A DNA stretch of 64,000 nt, from the NCBI GenBank assembly GCA_023664945.1, contig JAMPER010000001.1, positions 839,795 to 903,794 on the forward strand, read 5' to 3'. The position numbers were made by a program, and so were the translations under genes. The stretch's first letter is position 1, and each line of letters starts with the position of its first letter. This document shows, one piece after another, positions 30,630 through 63,803 of the stretch. The DNA is from Alistipes senegalensis (GTDB taxonomy: Bacteria; Pseudomonadota; Gammaproteobacteria; Burkholderiales; Burkholderiaceae_D). The notes beneath the pieces were generated by a model, which was not told where the DNA came from, did no database searches, and saw only the letters and a list, made by a program, of their open reading frames with translations.

Positions 30630-31280
30630 ATGATGAATCAGATACGCAGCAAAAAAAGACAGGCTATACTGGAAACGGCAGTACAGGTTTTCAGGGAAGT
30701 AGGATTTCACAATGCCTCAATGAACGTCATTGCCAGCCGTGTAGGCGGTTCCAAGTCAACGCTGTATAACCATTTTCCCTCAAAGGAAGCCCTGCTTCTG
30801 GAAATTATCCGCCATGTTGCCCGGCTCCAGAATCAGGAAAGAAGCGCTATCCTGACAGATGCAGCGCAAAATTACATCAATGCCGCTTTTCTCGCGCTGA
30901 ATGAGCCGCCGGACGATGTACGGGCTACTCTCCTCCGTTTTGGGGAAAACTTTATCAGTTTTCTTTATATGCCCGAGCTGCTTGCCATCCGCCGCTTTCT
31001 TGTCGCGGAATCCCGGCAATCGGAAATTGGACGTATCTACTATGAATCCGGTCCCAAAAAAGCGCTGGCACAAATCGCTGCCTACCTGAAAAAAGCCATG
31101 GAAGCAGGAACACTCCATAAAAAAGATCCGCTAATTGCGGCCGCTCATCTAAGAAGTCTTCTCGAGGCGGAATGTTATGAATACTTTCTGCTAAACATGG
31201 AAAAACCGCTTCCGGCAAAGCGCATACAGGAAATGGTTGAAGCGGCTGTCACGGTTTTCATGGCAGCATATGGAAAATAA
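30630..31280 (+). CDS. TetR-family repressor of the efflux operon
   Basis: A 216-residue TetR regulator. The HTH is at residues about 12-56 (AILETAVQVFREVGFHNASM, ASRVGGSKSTLYNHFPSKEA). The C-terminal ligand domain resembles the AcrR_C-type domain of efflux repressors. It is divergent from nodT-emrA-emrB, and the 33-bp palindrome lies between them. Two adjacent ATG codons (30630, 30633); the frame is open farther upstream only through the operator. Local efflux control is inferred from layout and is quite likely. Confidence 0.92.
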   Translation: MMNQIRSKKRQAILETAVQVFREVGFHNASMNVIASRVGGSKSTLYNHFPSKEALLLEIIRHVARLQNQERSAILTDAAQNYINAAFLALNEPPDDVRATLLRFGENFISFLYMPELLAIRRFLVAESRQSEIGRIYYESGPKKALAQIAAYLKKAMEAGTLHKKDPLIAAAHLRSLLEAECYEYFLLNMEKPLPAKRIQEMVEAAVTVFMAAYGK

Positions 31281-31407
31281 CAGAATTTACCGGTGCGAAT
31301 TTTGTACCGCACCTTACATGGCATCCTGTGCAACAGGCCATCCTCTCTGGTCTTGTCCTGCTCTATGCTGAAAAAGTAATCAACCGGTAAAAGACCCGGC
31401 AGCTTGG

Positions 31408-31788
31408 TCAAGTCTCAATCAGTTCAATCCGGTAGCCATCCGGATCTTCAAGAAAAGCAATGACTGTTTTGCCGCCTTTGACCGGACCGGGTTCCCTGGA
31501 AAGCCTGCCTCCTTTTTCCCGAATACGATCACACATGGCGTAAATATCGTTTGTTCCAATGGCAATATGCCCATAAGCTGTTCCCATCTCGTAATGGTCA
31601 ACACCATAATTCCAGGTCAGTTCCAGCTCGGCATGGTCAGGATTGCTGCCATATCCCAGATAGGCAAGCGTATATTTGAATTCAGGATTGTCCTTCATCC
31701 TTAACAGCGTCATGCCCAGTACATCGGTATAAAAATCAATGGAACGCTGCAAATCACCTACCCTGATCATAGTATGGAGAATACGCAT
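31408..31788 (-). CDS. gloA: Lactoylglutathione lyase (glyoxalase I)
   Basis: A 126-residue glyoxalase I that isomerises the methylglyoxal-glutathione hemithioacetal. Metal ligands by family: His in [13 protein letters not shown], Glu in [10 protein letters not shown], His in GYGHIAIG-like [11 protein letters not shown], and Glu in YRIELIE. This is the short, Ni-type form as in E. coli. It lies 30 nt after nrdG and may be the last gene of nrdD-nrdG-gloA. It implies the cell makes glutathione or a similar thiol (inference). Confidence 0.95.
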
Positions 31789-31818
31789 TACATGTTCCTT
31801 TCATCGTTGTTCTTTTCT

Positions 31819-32367
31819 TTATCCCGGCTTGTCGCCGAGCCAATCAGGATCTTCTGTCCAGATTGCTTTTTTTTCTGCCAGCGATCGTGGCAAATCCAGT
31901 ATACGCTGGTTTTCCGATCCCCTGAAACGCAGCGACAGATTGCGTTGCTTGATGACAAATGGCCCGTCAATCAGAATATCGGCCAATGAGAGCAATGCCA
32001 GCACATTCGGATCAGCATGCGCAAGAATGTCCTCAAAGACATAACCGGTATAAATAGCCAGATCCAGTTTTTCCTGCCGTATCATTTTTGCAAGCGGCAA
32101 AAGAGAAACCGCCTGACTCAGCGGTTCTCCCCCGCTGAAAGTCACGCCCGTCAGAATCGGATTTTTGCAAATCCGGCCAAACAATTCTTCAGCCGAATAC
32201 CACCTTCCTCCTTCCAGCGGGATAGACTCAGGATTATGGCAACCCGGACACGCTCTGGGACATCCCTGAACAAAGAGTGTCAGCCGCAATCCGGGACCAT
32301 CGGTTATGGAATCATTCTCTATGCCGGCAACACGAATCCTTCCGGCATCAGGCCTGGTGCTTGACAC
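31819..32367 (-). CDS. nrdG: Anaerobic NTP reductase activase NrdG
   Basis: A radical SAM activase of about 182 residues that forms the glycyl radical in NrdD. The cluster motif is CPRACPGC (CxxxCxxC) near residue 37, followed by FSGGEPLSQA. The frame is open up to 32409, overlapping nrdD by 62 nt; I prefer the GTG at 32367, which has GAGGA 9 nt upstream and leaves a 20-nt overlap typical of coupled genes. The ATG at 32394 is the alternative. Confidence 0.9.
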   Translation of the reverse strand: MSSTRPDAGRIRVAGIENDSITDGPGLRLTLFVQGCPRACPGCHNPESIPLEGGRWYSAEELFGRICKNPILTGVTFSGGEPLSQAVSLLPLAKMIRQEKLDLAIYTGYVFEDILAHADPNVLALLSLADILIDGPFVIKQRNLSLRFRGSENQRILDLPRSLAEKKAIWTEDPDWLGDKPG

Positions 32368-34741
32368 GATCCGATTCCTCGGCACGCTTGGCATTATTGA
32401 AACGATCAAGCGTACCGACCAGATAACCCGTTATGCGGCGGATACGTTCAAACTTGATTCCGTCCTCTTTTTCCTTGCGTCCGCATTTCGGGCACACTTC
32501 ACCAATAATGCCGTTGTAACCACAAACCGGATCACGATCTACCGGATGGTTGACTGAACCATACCCCACTCCGGCTTCCTTCATGGCGCGCACTACTTTC
32601 TCAAATGCCTTGACGTTATTGGATGTATCGCCATCCAGTTCCACATAAGTAATATGCCCGGCGGCTGTCAACGCATGATAAGGTGCCTCAATCTGGATTT
32701 TCTCATACGCAGAGATCGGGAAATAGACCGGCACATGAAAACTGTTTGTGTAATATTCACGGTCTGTTACCCCCTTGATAACGCCAAATTTTTGTTTGTC
32801 CATCCGAACAAAACGCCCGGAGAGTCCTTCAGCAGGCGTAGCCAGCAAAGAGAAATTTAACCCGTGTTTTTCGGTCATTCTGTCAAGGAAATCATTCATA
32901 AAACTGACAATTTCCAGGCCAAGATTGCGCGCTTCCTTGGATTCGCCGTGATGTTTGCCCGTCAAAGCCACCAGTGTTTCTGCCAGGCCGATAAAACCAA
33001 TCGACAACGTGCCGTGCTTGAGCACTTCGCCAACTTCGTCATTGGGTCCCAGCTTGTCTGAACCGATCCAGATACCCTGCCCCATAAGGAAAGGGAAATT
33101 TTTCACTTTTTTGGATGACTGGATTTTAAAACGATCCAGAAGCTGTCTGGCAACCAGCTCCATCTTCCGTTCCAGCTCATCAAAAAACCATTCCATGTTG
33201 CCTTTGCTGTTTAGGGCAATGCGAGGCAAATTGATGGAAGTAAAGCTCAGGTTACCTCTGCCAAAGGCAATTTCGTTTTCCGGATCAAAAGCATTGCCCA
33301 TCACGCGGGTACGGCATCCCATATAAACAGCCTCGGTTTCCGGCCGACCAGGGCGGTAATAACGCAGGTTAAACGGCGCATCCAGAAAAGCGAAATTGGG
33401 GAACAGCCTTTTTGCGCTGACTTTGCAGGCAAGCTGGAACAAATCATAGTTCGGGTCTCCCGGATTATAATTGACCCCTTCTTTAACTTTGAAGATATTG
33501 ATGGGAAAAATAGCTGTCTCGCCATTGCCCAGGCCCGATTCCGTTGCCAGCATAATATTACGAATGATCATCCGGCCCTCTGGCGAGGTATCTGTACCGT
33601 AATTGATGCTGGAAAAAGGCGTTTGCGCACCGGCACGGCTGTGCATGGTGTTAAGGTTGTGAACCAGAGCTTCCATAGCCTGGCGCACATCGCGGTCTGT
33701 TTCCGTTTCGGCATTTTCTTTGGCAAAAGCCTGAACAGCCGACAGGACAGCGTCTTCCTTCACCACCGCCGAAAAAGCAGCTTTTTCCTTTTCCCGAAAG
33801 GCTTCCGGCATAGCCAGGCAAGGGAAAAGCCCGGATTCTGCCTCAATAGCCTGGAACATTTCCGCTATCTTTTCCTTACTTAGATTTTCAGCAGGAACCA
33901 GTAACTTTAAGGCTTTGAAAAAATTGGAAATATAATTTTTTTTGTACGATTTTTCCACGCCCTTTGCAAGGCCGTAATCAAAATTGGGGATACTTTGCCC
34001 GCCATGCTGATCATTCTGGTTTGACTGAATAGCAATACATGCCAGCGCTGCATAACTCTGGATGCTGTTGGGTTCCCTCAAATTACCATGCCCCGTTGAA
34101 AAACCGCCCTCAAACAGTTTTTTGATATCAATCTGGCAACAGGTAGTAGTCAACGTATAAAAATCGAAATCGTGGATATGGATATCACCTTCCGAGTGGG
34201 CTTTTGCCTGTTCGGGCGACAGTACAAAGTGCTTGTAATAATCCTTGGCGCCTTCCGACCCATACTTGAGCATCACTCCCATTGCCGTATCGCCATCGAC
34301 ATTGCCATTTTCCCGCTTGATGTCGCTTAGCGTTGCATCCTTATGGGTCAATTCGTCAAAAACACGCATCAAACTGGTATTGCGTGTCCGTACCCTGCTG
34401 CGTTCGGAACGGTAAAGGATATATTTTTTGGCCACATAGGCATAACCGCTGTCCATAAGCACGGTTTCCACCGTATCCTGGATATCTTCAATACTGGGGG
34501 ATGCCTCCCGAAAACGAAGGCAGAGCTTGTGTTCTACCGCTTTGGCAAGGCGCATGCTTTCTTCCAGATTACCGCGATTGCATGCCAACAGCGCCTTGTT
34601 AATGGCTTCAGCAATTTTGGTAATGTCATACGGTACTATCCGCCCATCTCTTTTCTGGATAGCACTGAAGCGGATCTCTGCCCCGGTAACGCCATTATCC
34701 AACTGGCCATCCGAATCAATTTCCTGAACTGATTCAAACAT
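32348..34741 (-). CDS. nrdD: Anaerobic ribonucleoside-triphosphate reductase NrdD
   Basis: A class III ribonucleotide reductase of 797 residues, supplying dNTPs without oxygen. An N-terminal ATP cone (residues about 20-115: IQKRDGRIVPYDITKIAEAI) is followed by the ten-stranded barrel. The C-terminal zinc site is VCGYNGIIGEVCPKCGRKE, and the glycyl radical region is RRITGYLVGTLDRFN. I start at 34741 (MFESVQEIDS), preceded by GGGGGAAAGAGG; an upstream ATG at 34771 is possible. An exact FNR-type box lies about 200 nt upstream. Confidence 0.95.
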   Translation of the reverse strand: MFESVQEIDSDGQLDNGVTGAEIRFSAIQKRDGRIVPYDITKIAEAINKALLACNRGNLEESMRLAKAVEHKLCLRFREASPSIEDIQDTVETVLMDSGYAYVAKKYILYRSERSRVRTRNTSLMRVFDELTHKDATLSDIKRENGNVDGDTAMGVMLKYGSEGAKDYYKHFVLSPEQAKAHSEGDIHIHDFDFYTLTTTCCQIDIKKLFEGGFSTGHGNLREPNSIQSYAALACIAIQSNQNDQHGGQSIPNFDYGLAKGVEKSYKKNYISNFFKALKLLVPAENLSKEKIAEMFQAIEAESGLFPCLAMPEAFREKEKAAFSAVVKEDAVLSAVQAFAKENAETETDRDVRQAMEALVHNLNTMHSRAGAQTPFSSINYGTDTSPEGRMIIRNIMLATESGLGNGETAIFPINIFKVKEGVNYNPGDPNYDLFQLACKVSAKRLFPNFAFLDAPFNLRYYRPGRPETEAVYMGCRTRVMGNAFDPENEIAFGRGNLSFTSINLPRIALNSKGNMEWFFDELERKMELVARQLLDRFKIQSSKKVKNFPFLMGQGIWIGSDKLGPNDEVGEVLKHGTLSIGFIGLAETLVALTGKHHGESKEARNLGLEIVSFMNDFLDRMTEKHGLNFSLLATPAEGLSGRFVRMDKQKFGVIKGVTDREYYTNSFHVPVYFPISAYEKIQIEAPYHALTAAGHITYVELDGDTSNNVKAFEKVVRAMKEAGVGYGSVNHPVDRDPVCGYNGIIGEVCPKCGRKEKEDGIKFERIRRITGYLVGTLDRFNNAKRAEESDRVKHQA

Positions 34742-54893: not shown

Positions 54894-54962
54894 CCCTTGT
54901 TGAAAAAAACAGAATATCAATAATGCGCACAGTCTGATTCTTACTATTTCTTGGAGCTTTCT

Positions 54963-55583
54963 TTGCCACACTCTCTTATACCGGCTGATTTTGTATATAT
55001 CAGCGATATCGCACCTGAAATCCAGTTGGATATACGTTATTTCACAAGCAACAACTTTATTGGCGCACCTGTTGACGGATATGAAAAACCGGTTGCTATT
55101 CTCACCCGCCCGGCAGCATTGGCATTGAAAAAAGCAAGCGAAATTTGCCAGAAAACAGGCTATGCCATTTGTATTTTTGATGCTTACCGCCCACAGACAG
55201 CCGTCAACCATTTTATCCGCTGGGCAAAAAATCCGGATACCCAAACAAAGGCTGCCTATTATCCCTGCCTTGATAAACCTTCCCTGCTCGAAAAAGGCTA
55301 TATCGCGACCCGTTCCAGCCATTCCAGAGGCAGCACAATAGATATGACTCTTATTAGTCTTAAAACTGGAAAAGCGCTGGATATGGGTTCTCCCTTTGAT
55401 TTTTTTGACCCCATCTCTCACCACGGCGCAACAGGGCTCACACCAGAACAAACGGCCAACCGCTCAACGCTGCTTTCCATTATGAAAACCTGTGGATTTA
55501 TAACCTTCCCGCTGGAGTGGTGGCACTATACTCTGGAAAACGAGCCTTATCCCAATACCTGTTTTGATTTTCCGGTTCGCTAA
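54963..55583 (+). CDS. D-Ala-D-Ala dipeptidase (VanX/DdpX family)
   Basis: A zinc dipeptidase of about 206 residues (M15D). The metal site is SHSRGSTIDMTL (His, Asp) and EWWHYTL (Glu, His); the substrate Arg lies in FDAYRPQTAV. DdpX recycles D-Ala-D-Ala from cell wall turnover; VanX in vancomycin resistance removes it. No vanA/vanH homologue is present, so resistance is not implied. No signal peptide is seen. Start: TTG at 54963, with TTGGAG 6 nt upstream. Confidence 0.88.
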   Translation: MPHSLIPADFVYISDIAPEIQLDIRYFTSNNFIGAPVDGYEKPVAILTRPAALALKKASEICQKTGYAICIFDAYRPQTAVNHFIRWAKNPDTQTKAAYYPCLDKPSLLEKGYIATRSSHSRGSTIDMTLISLKTGKALDMGSPFDFFDPISHHGATGLTPEQTANRSTLLSIMKTCGFITFPLEWWHYTLENEPYPNTCFDFPVR

Positions 55584-55641: not shown

Positions 55642-57142
55642 ATGAAATATCTGATGCACATTCTTCGTTTTGCCACAGCGCTAACCGGTTGTCTGAGCAT
55701 TTTCTGCCTAGCTGCCTTGAAATGGCTCACATCTACTTTCGGTAAAAATATCCATATAGAACAAGTACTGTTTCACCTGTCCACACCGGCAGCAGGGATT
55801 GCCAATAATATTATTATGCGTGCTGTCGCCTTCATCCTGCTTTTTATTGCGGGGGGGGGTATGGGTTTTGCTTGTTTACCGAACCGATCGCTTTATCCAG
55901 TTTTTAGCTTCATTATCCGATAATCTTATAAAACTGTATAAAAAAGTCTATCAAAAAATCCAGAATAATAATAAAAACATTTCTCGTGTCTTTCCTTTTT
56001 TATTTTTCATAATTAGCCTGATTTCTGCACTGGCTGTCATTAAAAAAACGGATCGCAACCTTCGTATAAAAGAATATCTTGCTTCGCAAATAACCATCCC
56101 TAAAAAAGATTTCATTGCCGAACACTATCAGGTTCCGTCTCTTCATGACGTCACATTTGATAAAAAGAAAAATTTGGTAATCATATTAGTGGAATCGCTG
56201 GAGAACAGCTTTTCCGATCCCCGCATTGGCCCTTCCCTTACGCCGCATCTTGATTCATTAAAAAAACAATCAGCATATCATCCCAATCAGGTACAAATTG
56301 CCGGAACCAGTTGGACAATAGCGGCCATGACAGCATGGCATTTTGGCCTGCCGTTGAAATTGATTATTGACGGCAACGCCTATCGTTCCAAATTTGGTCA
56401 TACAACCTTCCTGCCTCATGCACATAGTATCTTTGATATTCTCGCTGATAATGGTTATGAACAGGTATTGATCATGGGAAGCAAATCAAGGTTTGGAGGA
56501 ACAGACAATCTTCATAAACATGGTAAATTTAAAATAAAAGATGCCCCTTATTGGAAAAAAACAGGTCATAATTCCGATGCATTTCACGGTGCATGGGAAT
56601 TCAACGATACCTTTGTCCTTAGCCAGGCAGAAAAAGAATACCAAAGGCTATCGAAACAAGACAAACCTTTTGTTCTAATCATCCAAACTATCGATACGCA
56701 TGCGCCAGAAGGGTTTTGTCCTGAAGATAAAAAATTTCATCATGATATCCGCGATGCCATACTAAACACTGACAAGGAATTGGGGAATTTTCTGAAGAAA
56801 AACTTTACCACAAAACCGGAAAATACCGTTGTTGCTGTATTGGGCGACCATTTATTCATGGGGAATCCCGCTTTTCTCGCTCCTGTTCAGGAAAGAACTA
56901 TTTTTAATGCATTTTATGGAAATATTCCCCCTATCAGCGAAAAGAAGAAGGCGGAGAAAATCTCTTCGCTGGATATTGCTCCTACCCTGCTTGAAGCAGC
57001 CGGTGCTAAATGGGGATCTCCATATTTTGGGTTGGGAGTGAGTGTTTTTTCTGATGTCCCATCTCTTGTTTCCATATATGGAATACATGAATTGAATCAT
57101 AAACTGGAGCAATTATCTCTACTTTACCAATCTTTTTTCTAA
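55642..57142 (+). pseudogene. OpgB/LTA-synthase-like phosphoglycerol transferase, G9 phase-variable (off)
   Basis: Reads in two frames joined by a run of nine G at 55851-55859. The first frame gives two membrane helices (FATALTGCLSIFCLAALKWL and AFILLFIAGG...) and stops at 55923 (93 residues). The second continues with YRTDRFIQFLASL, a third helix (FPFLFFIISLISALAVI) and an alkaline-phosphatase-fold domain: NLVIILVESLENSF, the nucleophile region AGTSWTIAAMTAWHFGLPLK, TIDTHAPEG and GDHLFMGN. With eight G the two fuse without a gap into 499 residues. The pattern, especially GT-[YW]-TIA, is that of E. coli OpgB, which puts phosphoglycerol on periplasmic glucans. AT-richer than its neighbours. 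Inferred off in this sequence. Confidence 0.8.
55851..55859 (+). repeat. Homopolymeric G9 tract inside coding sequence
   Basis: Nine consecutive G within the second transmembrane helix of the OpgB-like gene. The downstream frame requires eight G (or any count differing by three). Such tracts are classic slippage sites. Confidence 0.9.
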
Positions 57143-57156
57143 AAATTGACAAGAAA

Positions 57157-58087
57157 ATGAATATTCCTTCTAAAAAAAGAAAATGGCTGCTTGTTCTGGT
57201 TTTACTTGTAATAGCGTCTGGCTTCTCATTCTATTATGTCATAAAAAAGATAAAATCATACCGCGTTGAAATAAAAACCATGAAGCAGGAAATAGCTCAT
57301 TTATATTTAATTCGGGATATTGAAAAATACCTTCATGAAAACCCGGCGCATCCTCAACGTTTTTTTAATCATGATGGATACCGCTCAAAAGAAGCCTATA
57401 TTGCGCATGGGGGGGGGGATTGGCAAGTTTACCTATACCAACTCTAAAGAAGCTGTTCTGGATTCTGTTAAGAAAAATTTCAGGTTTATAGAAATTGATC
57501 TGATTAAAACGTCAGACGGGCATCTTTTTGCAGCGCATGACTGGAAAAGCTTTAAATCACTGGCAGGCATTTCAAACCATGATAAGATTCCCCTGACGCT
57601 TGACGAAGCCATAAAACTAAAAATCAAAGGAACATTTTCTCCACTGGATGGAAGTGGCATCCGGAAAATTATGGAAACCCATCGTGATTTTATTCTGGTA
57701 ACCGATAAAATTGCCGACTATGACCTGTTTTTAAAAGAAATTCCTTTCCCGGAAAGAATGATTGTGGAAGTTTTTTCTCCGGAAGATTATCTCAAAGCGT
57801 TACAATCCGGCGTCAAATACCCGGCTTATTGCATATGGGGGAAAAAAGAATATCAGATTGCAACCCGCTTCAGGTTCCCTATTGTCACTATGTCGGCATA
57901 CAGTTTCTTTGATACTCCTGAAACCACGCAAATGGCTCAGAATCTACATAATAACGGTACCGCCATTCTGCTTTTTGGTACAGGCAAGCCCTATTGGGAC
58001 AAAAAAGATTTCGTCAGGGAACATCTGGGCAAAACTGTCAGCAAAATTTACACAGACCGTTTCTCTCCGGCTGATATGCCCCAATAG
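57157..58087 (+). pseudogene. Membrane-anchored glycerophosphodiesterase-like, G10 phase-variable (off)
   Basis: Begins 14 nt after the transferase gene. One N-terminal helix (LLVLVLLVIASGFSFYYVI, residues about 11-29) places the rest in the periplasm. A G run at 57409-57418 (ten G) separates two frames: the first ends in AYIAHGGGDWQVYLYQL, the second carries on as GIGKFTYTNSKEAVLDS. With nine G the joined protein is 309 residues and reads IAHGGGIGKFTYTNSKEA. Features of the PI-PLC/GDPD superfamily are then aligned: the first His in AHGGG, FRFIEIDLIKTSDGHLFAAHDW (Glu, Asp, second His). It would cleave glycerophosphodiesters; the role is inferred. The tract follows the presumed catalytic His codon. 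Confidence 0.75.
57409..57418 (+). repeat. Homopolymeric G10 tract inside coding sequence
   Basis: Ten consecutive G encode the Gly residues behind the presumed catalytic His of the diesterase-like gene. Nine G keep the frame. Same direction of slip as in the gene before. Confidence 0.9.
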
Positions 58088-58207: not shown

Positions 58208-58948
58208 ATGAAAAAAATTGACCCTGCCAGCATCATGCAGATGGATCCCTCCATTTTTCCACCTGAACTGCTGGGGAAACTTTCCTTCAGGATAACGCCG
58301 CCAACTCAGCCGCCCCTTCCGGCAGGCCTGCACCAGCTCGGCTTGGCAAAAGAACGGGATACCCTGTTAATCGTTCCGGAACACCTGCCGTCTGGCAAGC
58401 CCATACCCCTTTTTGTCATGTTCCACGGCTCAAGTGGCAGCGCGCAAAAAGTTATGCCCTTTGTAGAAGCCTATGCGCACCGCCACCAATTCCTGATACT
58501 GCTGCCCCAGTCAACCTACTACACATGGGATCTCAGCGTTGGCGGGCACGGCCCGGACCTTGACCGCTTGGGGAAAGCACTGGAAAAAGTCGCCTCCCAT
58601 TTCATAATTGACCCGGCGCACTTTGCCTTTGCCGGTTTCTCGGATGGCGGCAGCTATGCGCTCTCAACCGGCCTGACCAATGGTAATCTCATTTCCCATA
58701 TTATCGTCTTTTCCGGCGGCTTTATGAACGTGTACCTGAAAACAGGCAAGCCCCGGGTCTTTATTTCACATAGTCCGGAAGACGAACAACTTAATATCAA
58801 AACCAGTGCGCTCAAACACTACAAGGAACTGAAAAGCGAAGGTTATGATATTGCTTTTGAACTTTTTTCCGGGCGGCATGTTATCCACCCGCCTGTTGTG
58901 GAAAAAGCAATGGCTTTCTTCCTGGAACCGGCATCCCAATCAGCCTGA
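58208..58948 (+). CDS. Alpha/beta hydrolase, esterase-like (paralogue 1)
   Basis: A 246-residue serine hydrolase without signal peptide. The nucleophile elbow is AGFSDGGSYAL, the oxyanion region FVMFHGSSGSAQK, the acid probably in SHSPEDEQLN and the His in SGRHVIHPPVV. The layout resembles phospholipase/carboxylesterase-type and PHB-depolymerase-type enzymes (LPQSTYYTWDLS). A close relative is encoded at 63048. The ATG at 58208 has no strong ribosome site; Met 11 and 12 are alternatives. Substrate unknown. Confidence 0.85.
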   Translation: MKKIDPASIMQMDPSIFPPELLGKLSFRITPPTQPPLPAGLHQLGLAKERDTLLIVPEHLPSGKPIPLFVMFHGSSGSAQKVMPFVEAYAHRHQFLILLPQSTYYTWDLSVGGHGPDLDRLGKALEKVASHFIIDPAHFAFAGFSDGGSYALSTGLTNGNLISHIIVFSGGFMNVYLKTGKPRVFISHSPEDEQLNIKTSALKHYKELKSEGYDIAFELFSGRHVIHPPVVEKAMAFFLEPASQSA

Positions 58949-62672: not shown

Positions 62673-63047
62673 AATTCCTCATTTCCTTGTCAATAGAGCT
62701 ACTACTTCTTGTGTTGCAAGTGGATATGGCCCGAAGGCCATACTAAATACACCATTCAACCACAAACGTGGCAGGATGAACTACCGCAGCAGACCTGCCG
62801 CATCTCTGACACCACAGCCAAAAATATGGCAGACCTTGTATATAGCATGACTATTTTACTGGATAATCAGCCCAACGCAATACTGTTTCTCAAAAACATT
62901 CGGCATTCCCTCGCCATACCTGCTTTCCCCTGCATATAGACAGGAAAAACCTTCCGGCCTGGGCAACAGAAAACCTTTTATAATATTGAATGACTGTCAA
63001 AATACGTTCTTCTATATTTTTATCTTTCCGCTACTGTGCTACCAGAA
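62673..63047. other. frc promoter/leader region
   Basis: About 375 bases between divergent frc and hydrolase 2. It must hold both promoters, but I cannot assign -35/-10 boxes with confidence. A compact hairpin is present at 62725-62742. Confidence 0.4.
62725..62742 (-). promoter_or_regulatory. Compact hairpin in the frc leader
   Basis: A 7-bp stem TATGGCC / GGCCATA closes a four-base loop (CGAA on plus, TTCG on the minus, mRNA-sense strand: a UUCG-type stable tetraloop). It lies about 55 nt before the frc start codon and may stabilise the abundant frc mRNA (inference). Confidence 0.5.
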
Positions 63048-63803
63048 ATGAATAATGCCGACAACAGCCAATTCTCACTGGCAGATCTTGAGCAATATGA
63101 TTTTTCCGGTTTCCCCCCTTCTCTGCTTGGCAAGCTGGATTTTTGCATCGTGCCGCCTACAGGCACTCCCATGCCGGCAGGACAACATTTTCTTGGCGTT
63201 GCCCAAGAAAGGGATACCCTCCTTGTTGTGCCTGAAAACCTGCCTCTGGACAAACCGGTTCCCCTGCTCGTTATGTTCCATGGTGCGGGAGGCAGCGCGG
63301 AAAAAGTATTACCGTTTCTGATAGAACATGCCAAAAGCCGCCGCTTTTTGCTTATGCTTCCCCAGTCCACCTATCCGACATGGGATTTGACAATAGGCGG
63401 ATATGGCCCTGATTTGGAAAAACTGGAAAAAGCGCTTGCCGCCGTCTCTTCCTGTTTTGCTGTTGATCAGGCCCATTTTGGTATAGCCGGTTTTTCTGAT
63501 GGCGGCAGTTATGCGCTCTCAACCGGCGTCACAAATGGCAAACTCTTCTCACATGTTATCGTTTTTTCCGGCGGTTTCATGAATGTCTATAAAAAAGAAG
63601 GCAAGCCCAAAATCTTTATCGCACACAGTCCGCAAGACGAACAGCTTAATATCAAAACCAGCGGCTTAAAGCACTATAATCTGCTGAAAAAAGAAGGCTA
63701 CAATGTGCATTTCGAGATGTTCAACGGATTGCACATTATCTATCCGCCTGTGGTAGAAAAGGCTGTTGCCTTTTTTCTGAGCAGCCCGTCTGAACACAGC
63801 TGA
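63048..63803 (+). CDS. Alpha/beta hydrolase, esterase-like (paralogue 2)
   Basis: About 251 residues, and a clear paralogue of the protein at 58208: by eye about two thirds identical, without large gaps. Shared blocks: PPxLLGKL, QERDTLLVVPE, LLVMFHGAGGSAEK, LPQSTYPTWDL, the elbow AGFSDGGSYALSTG, SHVIVFSGGFMNVY and PQDEQLNIKTS. The active-site His is probably in NGLHIIYPPVV. I use the ATG at 63048; a GTG at 63036 is possible. Together the two flank the AAA+ and frc genes, which points to a duplication. Substrate unknown. Confidence 0.85.
   Translation: MNNADNSQFSLADLEQYDFSGFPPSLLGKLDFCIVPPTGTPMPAGQHFLGVAQERDTLLVVPENLPLDKPVPLLVMFHGAGGSAEKVLPFLIEHAKSRRFLLMLPQSTYPTWDLTIGGYGPDLEKLEKALAAVSSCFAVDQAHFGIAGFSDGGSYALSTGVTNGKLFSHVIVFSGGFMNVYKKEGKPKIFIAHSPQDEQLNIKTSGLKHYNLLKKEGYNVHFEMFNGLHIIYPPVVEKAVAFFLSSPSEHS

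Follow-up and report, generated by a model that had tools for sequence, protein, structure and literature searches.

Poly-G tracts in a putative phase-variable transferase-diesterase gene pair of the Oxalobacter cell envelope

The window analysed here is a 64-kb stretch of DNA (C8:839795-903794) from an Oxalobacter genome of 1.93 Mb in 16 contigs (G000). It contains two adjacent genes, separated by 14 nt, which encode a transferase (gene A) and a diesterase of predicted GDPD type. The parts of the two genes and their neighbours are listed below in window coordinates.

54951..55583, forward strand: upstream neighbour, M15 D-Ala-D-Ala dipeptidase-like gene that carries no tract (Pfam PF01427, 1e-45)
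55642..55850, forward strand: 5' part of gene A, with start codon and predicted membrane segments (open reading frame, Kyte-Doolittle hydrophobicity, 58% identity to paralogue B)
55851..55859, forward strand: G9 tract in gene A, out of frame (direct reading; pure G10 at the homologous position in paralogue B)
55862..57142, forward strand: remainder of gene A, sulfatase-fold (OpgB/LTA-synthase-like) domain, in the next frame (Pfam, NCBIfam, PDB 3lxq)
57157..57408, forward strand: 5' part of the GDPD gene, with start, predicted membrane anchor and IAH, which includes the first predicted catalytic His (sequence, open reading frame)
57409..57418, forward strand: G10 tract after the predicted catalytic His codon, out of frame (direct reading; G11 at the same position in a sister genome)
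57419..58087, forward strand: remainder of the GDPD gene, predicted catalytic domain, in the next frame (Pfam, profile matches to the GDPDs 3i10, 2oog and 2pz0)
58208..58948, forward strand: downstream neighbour, esterase-like protein of 246 aa (assigned by eye, with no Pfam match; used as a dN/dS baseline)

The downstream neighbour is related to a second esterase-like gene about 4 kb away (63036-63803, about 70% DNA identity). Between the two lie an AAA ATPase gene and a gene that by eye resembles formyl-CoA:oxalate CoA-transferase.

Apart from the G9 and G10 tracts, the window has no G or C run that reaches 7 bases. Runs of at least 9 bases are expected about 0.2 times for G and about 0.4 times for C under a first-order Markov model, and about 0.05 times each under a third-order model. 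The gene pair is AT-rich, with a G+C content of 39.4% in gene A and 39.5% in the diesterase gene versus 47.7% in the window, and GGG is the rarest Gly codon in the 37 long open reading frames of the window (192 of 1156). In gene A the reading frame starts at ATG 55642, enters the tract 209 bases past the ATG and ends at a stop at 55921-55923, 64 bases past the tract; the rest of the gene continues in the next frame, open as far as 57142. The diesterase frame starts at ATG 57157 and stops at 57445-57447, 29 bases past a tract that directly follows the codon of the His which we take to be the first catalytic one (57406-57408), and the rest of this gene can be read in the next frame up to 58087. 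Both domain matches (Sulfatase and GDPD) fall 3' of the tracts. Since the parts on either side of each tract are open in different frames, translation from the start codon would yield only a truncated membrane piece. Direct reading and the coordinates of the open reading frames thus bear out the first-pass annotation as regards the tracts, their spacing, the splitting of both genes, the off/off state in this assembly and the quoted lengths of 499 and 309 residues. Features by which contingency genes are recognized were found in both genes, namely a homopolymer of at least 8 bases within the coding region and a conserved domain beyond it in another frame that is free of further stops.

The product of gene A has a sulfatase-type phosphotransferase domain (Pfam Sulfatase PF00884, E 6.6e-16, 58.9 bits versus a cut-off of 25). 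The best NCBIfam match of the downstream open reading frame alone was PRK03776 (E 3.6e-47, over 363 aa), with 160.9 of the 574 bits that define the OpgB/MdoB equivalog. The only solved relative under E 0.01 was PDB 3lxq (3.3e-20). The motifs VESLE (56189), GTSWT (56303), DTHAP (56693) and GDHLF (56843) presumably have catalytic roles. A search for MdoG, which acts in periplasmic-glucan synthesis, was positive in 2 of 25 genomes overall and in the E. coli control, and gave no match in the 13 Oxalobacter genomes, several of which are incomplete (62-100%; 99.94% for the present genome). Periplasmic glucans are therefore an unlikely acceptor, and the phosphoglycerol would instead be transferred to LPS or another surface glycan. 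A-like proteins occur in 10 of 60 genomes of relatives and the diesterase in 3 of 60, so A-like enzymes usually lack a partner of this kind.

The diesterase matched Pfam GDPD PF03009 with an E value of 3e-4 and 21.4 bits, below the cut-off of 23.6; its relatives scored 47.7 (spirochaete), 33.8 (Akkermansia) and 21.9 bits (sister genome). A profile built from nine homologues matched the solved GDPDs given in the list, its top match being a designed TIM barrel, and the E, D and H of the GDPD motif are conserved (IEID from 57488, HDW from 57536). A scan of genome contigs gave 10 loci, comprising that of the sister genome, one in a Nitrosomonadales genome (G058) and eight others. The pairing with an A-like transferase recurs in one distant genome only, that of the Nitrosomonadales, amid glycosyltransferase-like genes (neighbours named by eye from translations) and with no G or C run of at least 8 bases within 14 kb. 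At the eight other loci no A-like neighbour was evident when open reading frames were inspected by eye rather than by family search. Runs of at least 8 bases were likewise absent there, except in a Spirochaetaceae MAG (JAIRPY010000081.1), in which a G20 tract (L108:207-226) lies between anchor and catalytic domain of a GDPD gene of the same subfamily, the two parts being in different frames. This may be an independent origin of the same switch.

These data bear on the proposal that the diesterase trims what the transferase adds, which could not be established. The competing explanation, that the substrates of the diesterase are lysophospholipid or other glycerophosphodiesters, or that it serves to salvage by-products, and that it is simply co-switched with gene A, stands at not far below even odds. 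Groups derived from phosphatidylglycerol are sn-glycerol-1-phosphate, and in S. aureus an LPG phospholipase D has reportedly been found. GlpQ acts specifically on sn-glycerol-3-phosphate and, according to the part of the source consulted, leaves intact LTA (sn-glycerol-1-phosphate) undegraded unless it is precleaved (PMC7086022). The eight loci devoid of an evident A-like neighbour point the same way. Trimming is favoured by the pairing with an OpgB-like gene inside the glycan locus of the Nitrosomonadales genome, and the stereospecificity of the diesterase subfamily may differ from that of GlpQ.

Gene A has a paralogue, B (contig C10, positions 31100-32401; 61% identical), in the same genome. 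The pure G10 of B lies at the codon position homologous to the tract of A and leaves B out of frame in the other class than A. The leader of B has a run of ten C (C10) that starts 19 bases before its ATG. This run (L046:6888-6897, L084:5004-5013) has the same length in both Oxalobacter genomes compared and may modulate translation or transcription in addition to the coding G10. The second of these genomes, G007, belongs to the same genus and is a separate assembly. With the 255-aa downstream open reading frame as query, its diesterase shows 89% identity across residues 29-255; it has G11 at the same position, again out of frame and in a class that differs from that of the G10 in G000. Tract length thus differs at the same position in both gene families (G9 in A and G10 in B; G10 and G11 in the GDPD genes), a further mark of contingency genes. 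The first-pass annotation had argued from two errors of the same sense in neighbouring genes; this argument is replaced by the observation that B is in the other out-of-frame class and that the copies differ in length and frame class.

In G007 the end of a transferase gene stands just before the diesterase gene, after which the contig ends, and another contig breaks off shortly after the start of B and retains the C10 ahead of the ATG. As the contigs break inside the copies of A and B, only four alleles are readable (A, B and GDPD in G000; GDPD in G007), and all four are out of frame; no in-frame allele of A, B or GDPD was found among them. Inspected by eye, the C-terminal end of the G007 transferase (L082:8740-9064, at the contig end) is closer to B than to A of G000, and together with the contig breaks in both copies this resemblance hints at possible gene conversion.

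A third paralogue, 507 aa long, has an open frame both in G000 (C13) and in G007 (C34), as do relatives in G001 and G002; none of them has a G or C run of at least 8 bases in the stretch fetched. The tract is therefore not a feature of the family, and the idea that the family requires it was rejected. As evidence against switching, the first-pass annotation had coupled in-frame homologues that lack a tract with further stops in the present copies; such homologues of A exist, and stops beyond the tract are absent from A, B and both GDPD genes. A first search of the contigs with protein A gave 96 pattern matches and no relative. When 100 relatives were searched for the pattern of AH codons followed by G8, it occurred at five places in four genomes, two of the places being the GDPD genes of G000 and G007; at the three remaining places no GDPD was evident by eye in the surrounding open reading frames. 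The tract-bearing proteins at L044 (GT2) and L090 were rejected as relatives, being unrelated.

Selection on the coding parts was estimated as dN/dS by the NG86 method. For A versus B the ratio was 0.284 over the 69 codons before the tract and 0.212 over the 425 codons after it (dS 1.16 and 1.33). The diesterase genes of G000 and G007 gave 0.246 over 83 codons before the tract (0.155 in the best 55-codon segment) and 0.185 over 222 codons after it. As baselines between the same genomes, three neighbours gave 0.105, 0.094 and 0.088, the C13 paralogue 0.114, a further gene of the sulfatase family (with a run of 9) 0.140 and the best segment of a GT9 gene 0.328. Simulated evolution free of constraint left the frames stop-free in 1 of 2000 diesterase pairs and 0 of 500 A pairs. 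The absence of stops, ratios near 0.2 and the simulations together indicate that the genes are kept, perhaps under somewhat relaxed constraint, and support purifying selection on the predicted protein beyond the tract.

That the genes have been switched off and are being lost, the tracts being relics, is unlikely on these figures. Decaying pseudogenes would fit the out-of-frame state of all four readable alleles, and the diesterase ratio of 0.185 exceeds the 0.088-0.114 of the four untracted baselines, so some relaxation is possible. Against decay stand the open frames beyond every tract, which neutral simulation almost never leaves, ratios clearly below 1, and the pure G runs kept in A and B despite strongly diverged synonymous sites.

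The two window tracts belong to a set of 14 distinct G or C tracts of at least 9 bases in G000. Seven are intragenic by open reading frames and Pfam: A, the diesterase gene and B are out of frame, and genes for a GT9 protein, a GT2 protein, a GT92 protein and a 654-aa sulfatase-family protein are open across their tracts. The other seven are leader or intergenic tracts; they include the C10 that precedes B and another C10 next to where an outer-membrane efflux (OEP) gene begins. The GT9 gene (heptosyltransferase family) is open with C10 in G000 (L044:6494-6503) and split with C9 in G007 (L091:5375-5383), so that in-frame and out-of-frame states are both seen between the two genomes. It lies about 25 kb beyond the window, and the GT2 gene with G11 is nearby. 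Some tracts do not vary: the 654-aa sulfatase-family gene has 9 bases in both genomes, as the leader of B has C10 in both, and the GT92 genes differ by a substitution, not in length.

Slippage of RNA polymerase or of the ribosome would offer another account of out-of-frame alleles under purifying selection, in which every allele gives a constant low amount of full-length protein and the tract governs the dose instead of switching the gene on or off. Long homopolymers are generally known to cause slippage in transcripts. The frame classes of A and B differ, as do those of the two GDPD genes, and only one of the two genomes has an unbroken GT9 gene; all of these suggest changes of DNA length and make this account distinctly unlikely.

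At the start of the OEP gene the tract, C10 in G000 (L040:6547-6556) and C11 in G007 (L086:14669-14679), stands between an AAGGGGA stretch and an ATG. This ATG opens the gene frame in G007; in G000 it is in another frame, with a stop just before it in the OEP frame. A simple spacing switch was rejected because the two starts differ by more than the tract. A promoter-spacer switch for a 309-aa gene at L038:3274 was suggestive by eye, but the promoter scan gave only another site. In the window region the scan gave 8 sites versus 8.9 expected, and in the leader of B none. In G007 a nucleotide-sugar epimerase gene is split at a G10 (L087:5170-5179); its G000 counterpart is open and lacks such a tract. 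A third Oxalobacter genome (G003) has a C11 near the start of an N6 DNA methylase gene (L099:5015-5025), between two differently framed open reading frames, which makes it a candidate methylome switch. The same single-contig genome has five G tracts of 22 to 26 bases (G003:C1, L094-L098), of which one lies about 60 bases before a 692-aa open reading frame (CopB match, below the cut-off) and another close to a gene for a Chlam_PMP-repeat protein.

All 13 Oxalobacter genomes have at least one 9-mer match, with counts from 1 to 86 and several below 5. Of 47 genomes outside the genus, 3 (G045, G053 and G055) have more matches per Mb than G000 (23 matches in 1.93 Mb). Tracts are thus numerous in G000 but neither unique to it nor uniform across the genus. 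Loss of MutS was rejected, since mutS1 was found in 13 of the 14 genomes examined, G000 and G007 included; with mutS present, slippage need not be fast.

That the homopolymers were miscounted in this assembly and that the genes are simply intact has a low probability: some platforms are generally known to miscall long G runs, and against this the other four intragenic tracts of the same assembly (9 to 11 bases) are in open reading frames, the separate G007 assembly has an out-of-frame G11 in the same gene, and tracts of such length at conserved positions would be slippage-prone even with wrong counts. That assembly and paralogue B make a sequencing artefact a very unlikely source of the tracts themselves.

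The gene pair is best read as an envelope module of two genes whose translation is phase-variable through poly-G tracts, a reading to which we assign a probability of roughly 0.77. This agrees with the phase variation originally proposed and draws, at the level of sequence, on tracts at the same codon positions in paralogue B and the G007 GDPD gene, in other out-of-frame classes, and on the purifying selection beyond them. Replication slippage in the tracts would restore or break the frame at high frequency, and in a clonal population some cells would possess a given one of the enzymes while others lack it. From phosphatidylglycerol as donor, gene A and the tract-bearing paralogue B would pass phosphoglycerol on to a glycan of the envelope, for instance LPS or a surface polysaccharide. 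Glycerophosphodiesters in that compartment would be the substrates of the membrane-anchored GDPD-type enzyme, which would serve either to trim the decoration or to recycle by-products. A more far-reaching version is rather doubtful: a writer and an eraser of surface-glycan glycerophosphate in one operon, each with its own poly-G switch, plus a second switchable writer elsewhere, by which a gut commensal might step through several envelope states by slippage alone, with the G20 of the Spirochaetaceae MAG as a tract of independent origin in the same subfamily.

Phase variation by simple repeats has been studied mostly in mucosal pathogens; the present poly-G tracts appear to be in envelope genes of Oxalobacter, a gut oxalate degrader of therapeutic interest. 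If the module is phase-variable, several envelope types would coexist in isolates and probiotic cultures, gene A and the GDPD gene would be mislabelled as pseudogenes in annotation, and strain comparisons as well as phage and host-interaction tests would need tracking of tract lengths. Joint switching of transferase and diesterase also poses the testable question of whether the two switches are opposed or act as one unit. The literature searches made returned neither phase variation in Oxalobacter nor a phase-variable GDPD partner. In an Oxalobacter genome paper (PMC9812493) the terms homopolymer and frameshift are absent and 'phase' occurs only in unrelated senses. In the excerpts of a Treponema paper (PMC10118025) the poly-G passage concerns tpr genes, and the diesterase appears only in the references.

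Among known systems, OpgB/MdoB (phosphatidylglycerol:membrane-oligosaccharide glycerophosphotransferase) is the nearest NCBIfam family of gene A; the differences are a score far under the equivalog cut-off and a genus with no MdoG detected. Streptococcal GacH reportedly transfers glycerol phosphate to the group A carbohydrate, a surface glycan, and is an analogue of gene A by description, not by sequence. The diesterase resembles GlpQ/GDPD enzymes in its profile matches to solved structures and retained E, D and H; it differs as a divergent subfamily with H-(A/G)-GG...YTNSKEA below the Pfam cut-off, and by its N-terminal membrane anchor and poly-G tract. G tracts in surface genes of Neisseria and Campylobacter mediate on/off switching by slippage.

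A phosphoglycerol transferase of Campylobacter coli with a G8-9 tract (N149_0993; BfR-CA-9557 position 1257487) is described as putatively phase-variable in the portions of two papers that were consulted (PMC6321876, PMC4687069). It is comparable to gene A in its annotated class and its G/C tract, which by the coordinates of the open reading frame and the minus strand lies about 248 bases inside the 5' end (PMC4687069), versus 209 past the ATG in gene A; the labelled columns of the same table give 256 bases from the stop, so the place of the tract is uncertain. The likeness is by annotation, not sequence, and the excerpts name no diesterase partner. PptA of Neisseria meningitidis is likewise an envelope phospho-group transferase with a coding poly-G tract: the tract, which encodes glycines, switches this pilin phosphotransferase, some lengths being on and others off (PMC3656113, in part). 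The likeness is again by description, not sequence; PptA differs in adding phosphocholine to pili, and the excerpt of that paper mentions no linked diesterase. With these two precedents, the mechanism is already known and the class of transferase to which gene A belongs has been listed as putatively phase-variable before.
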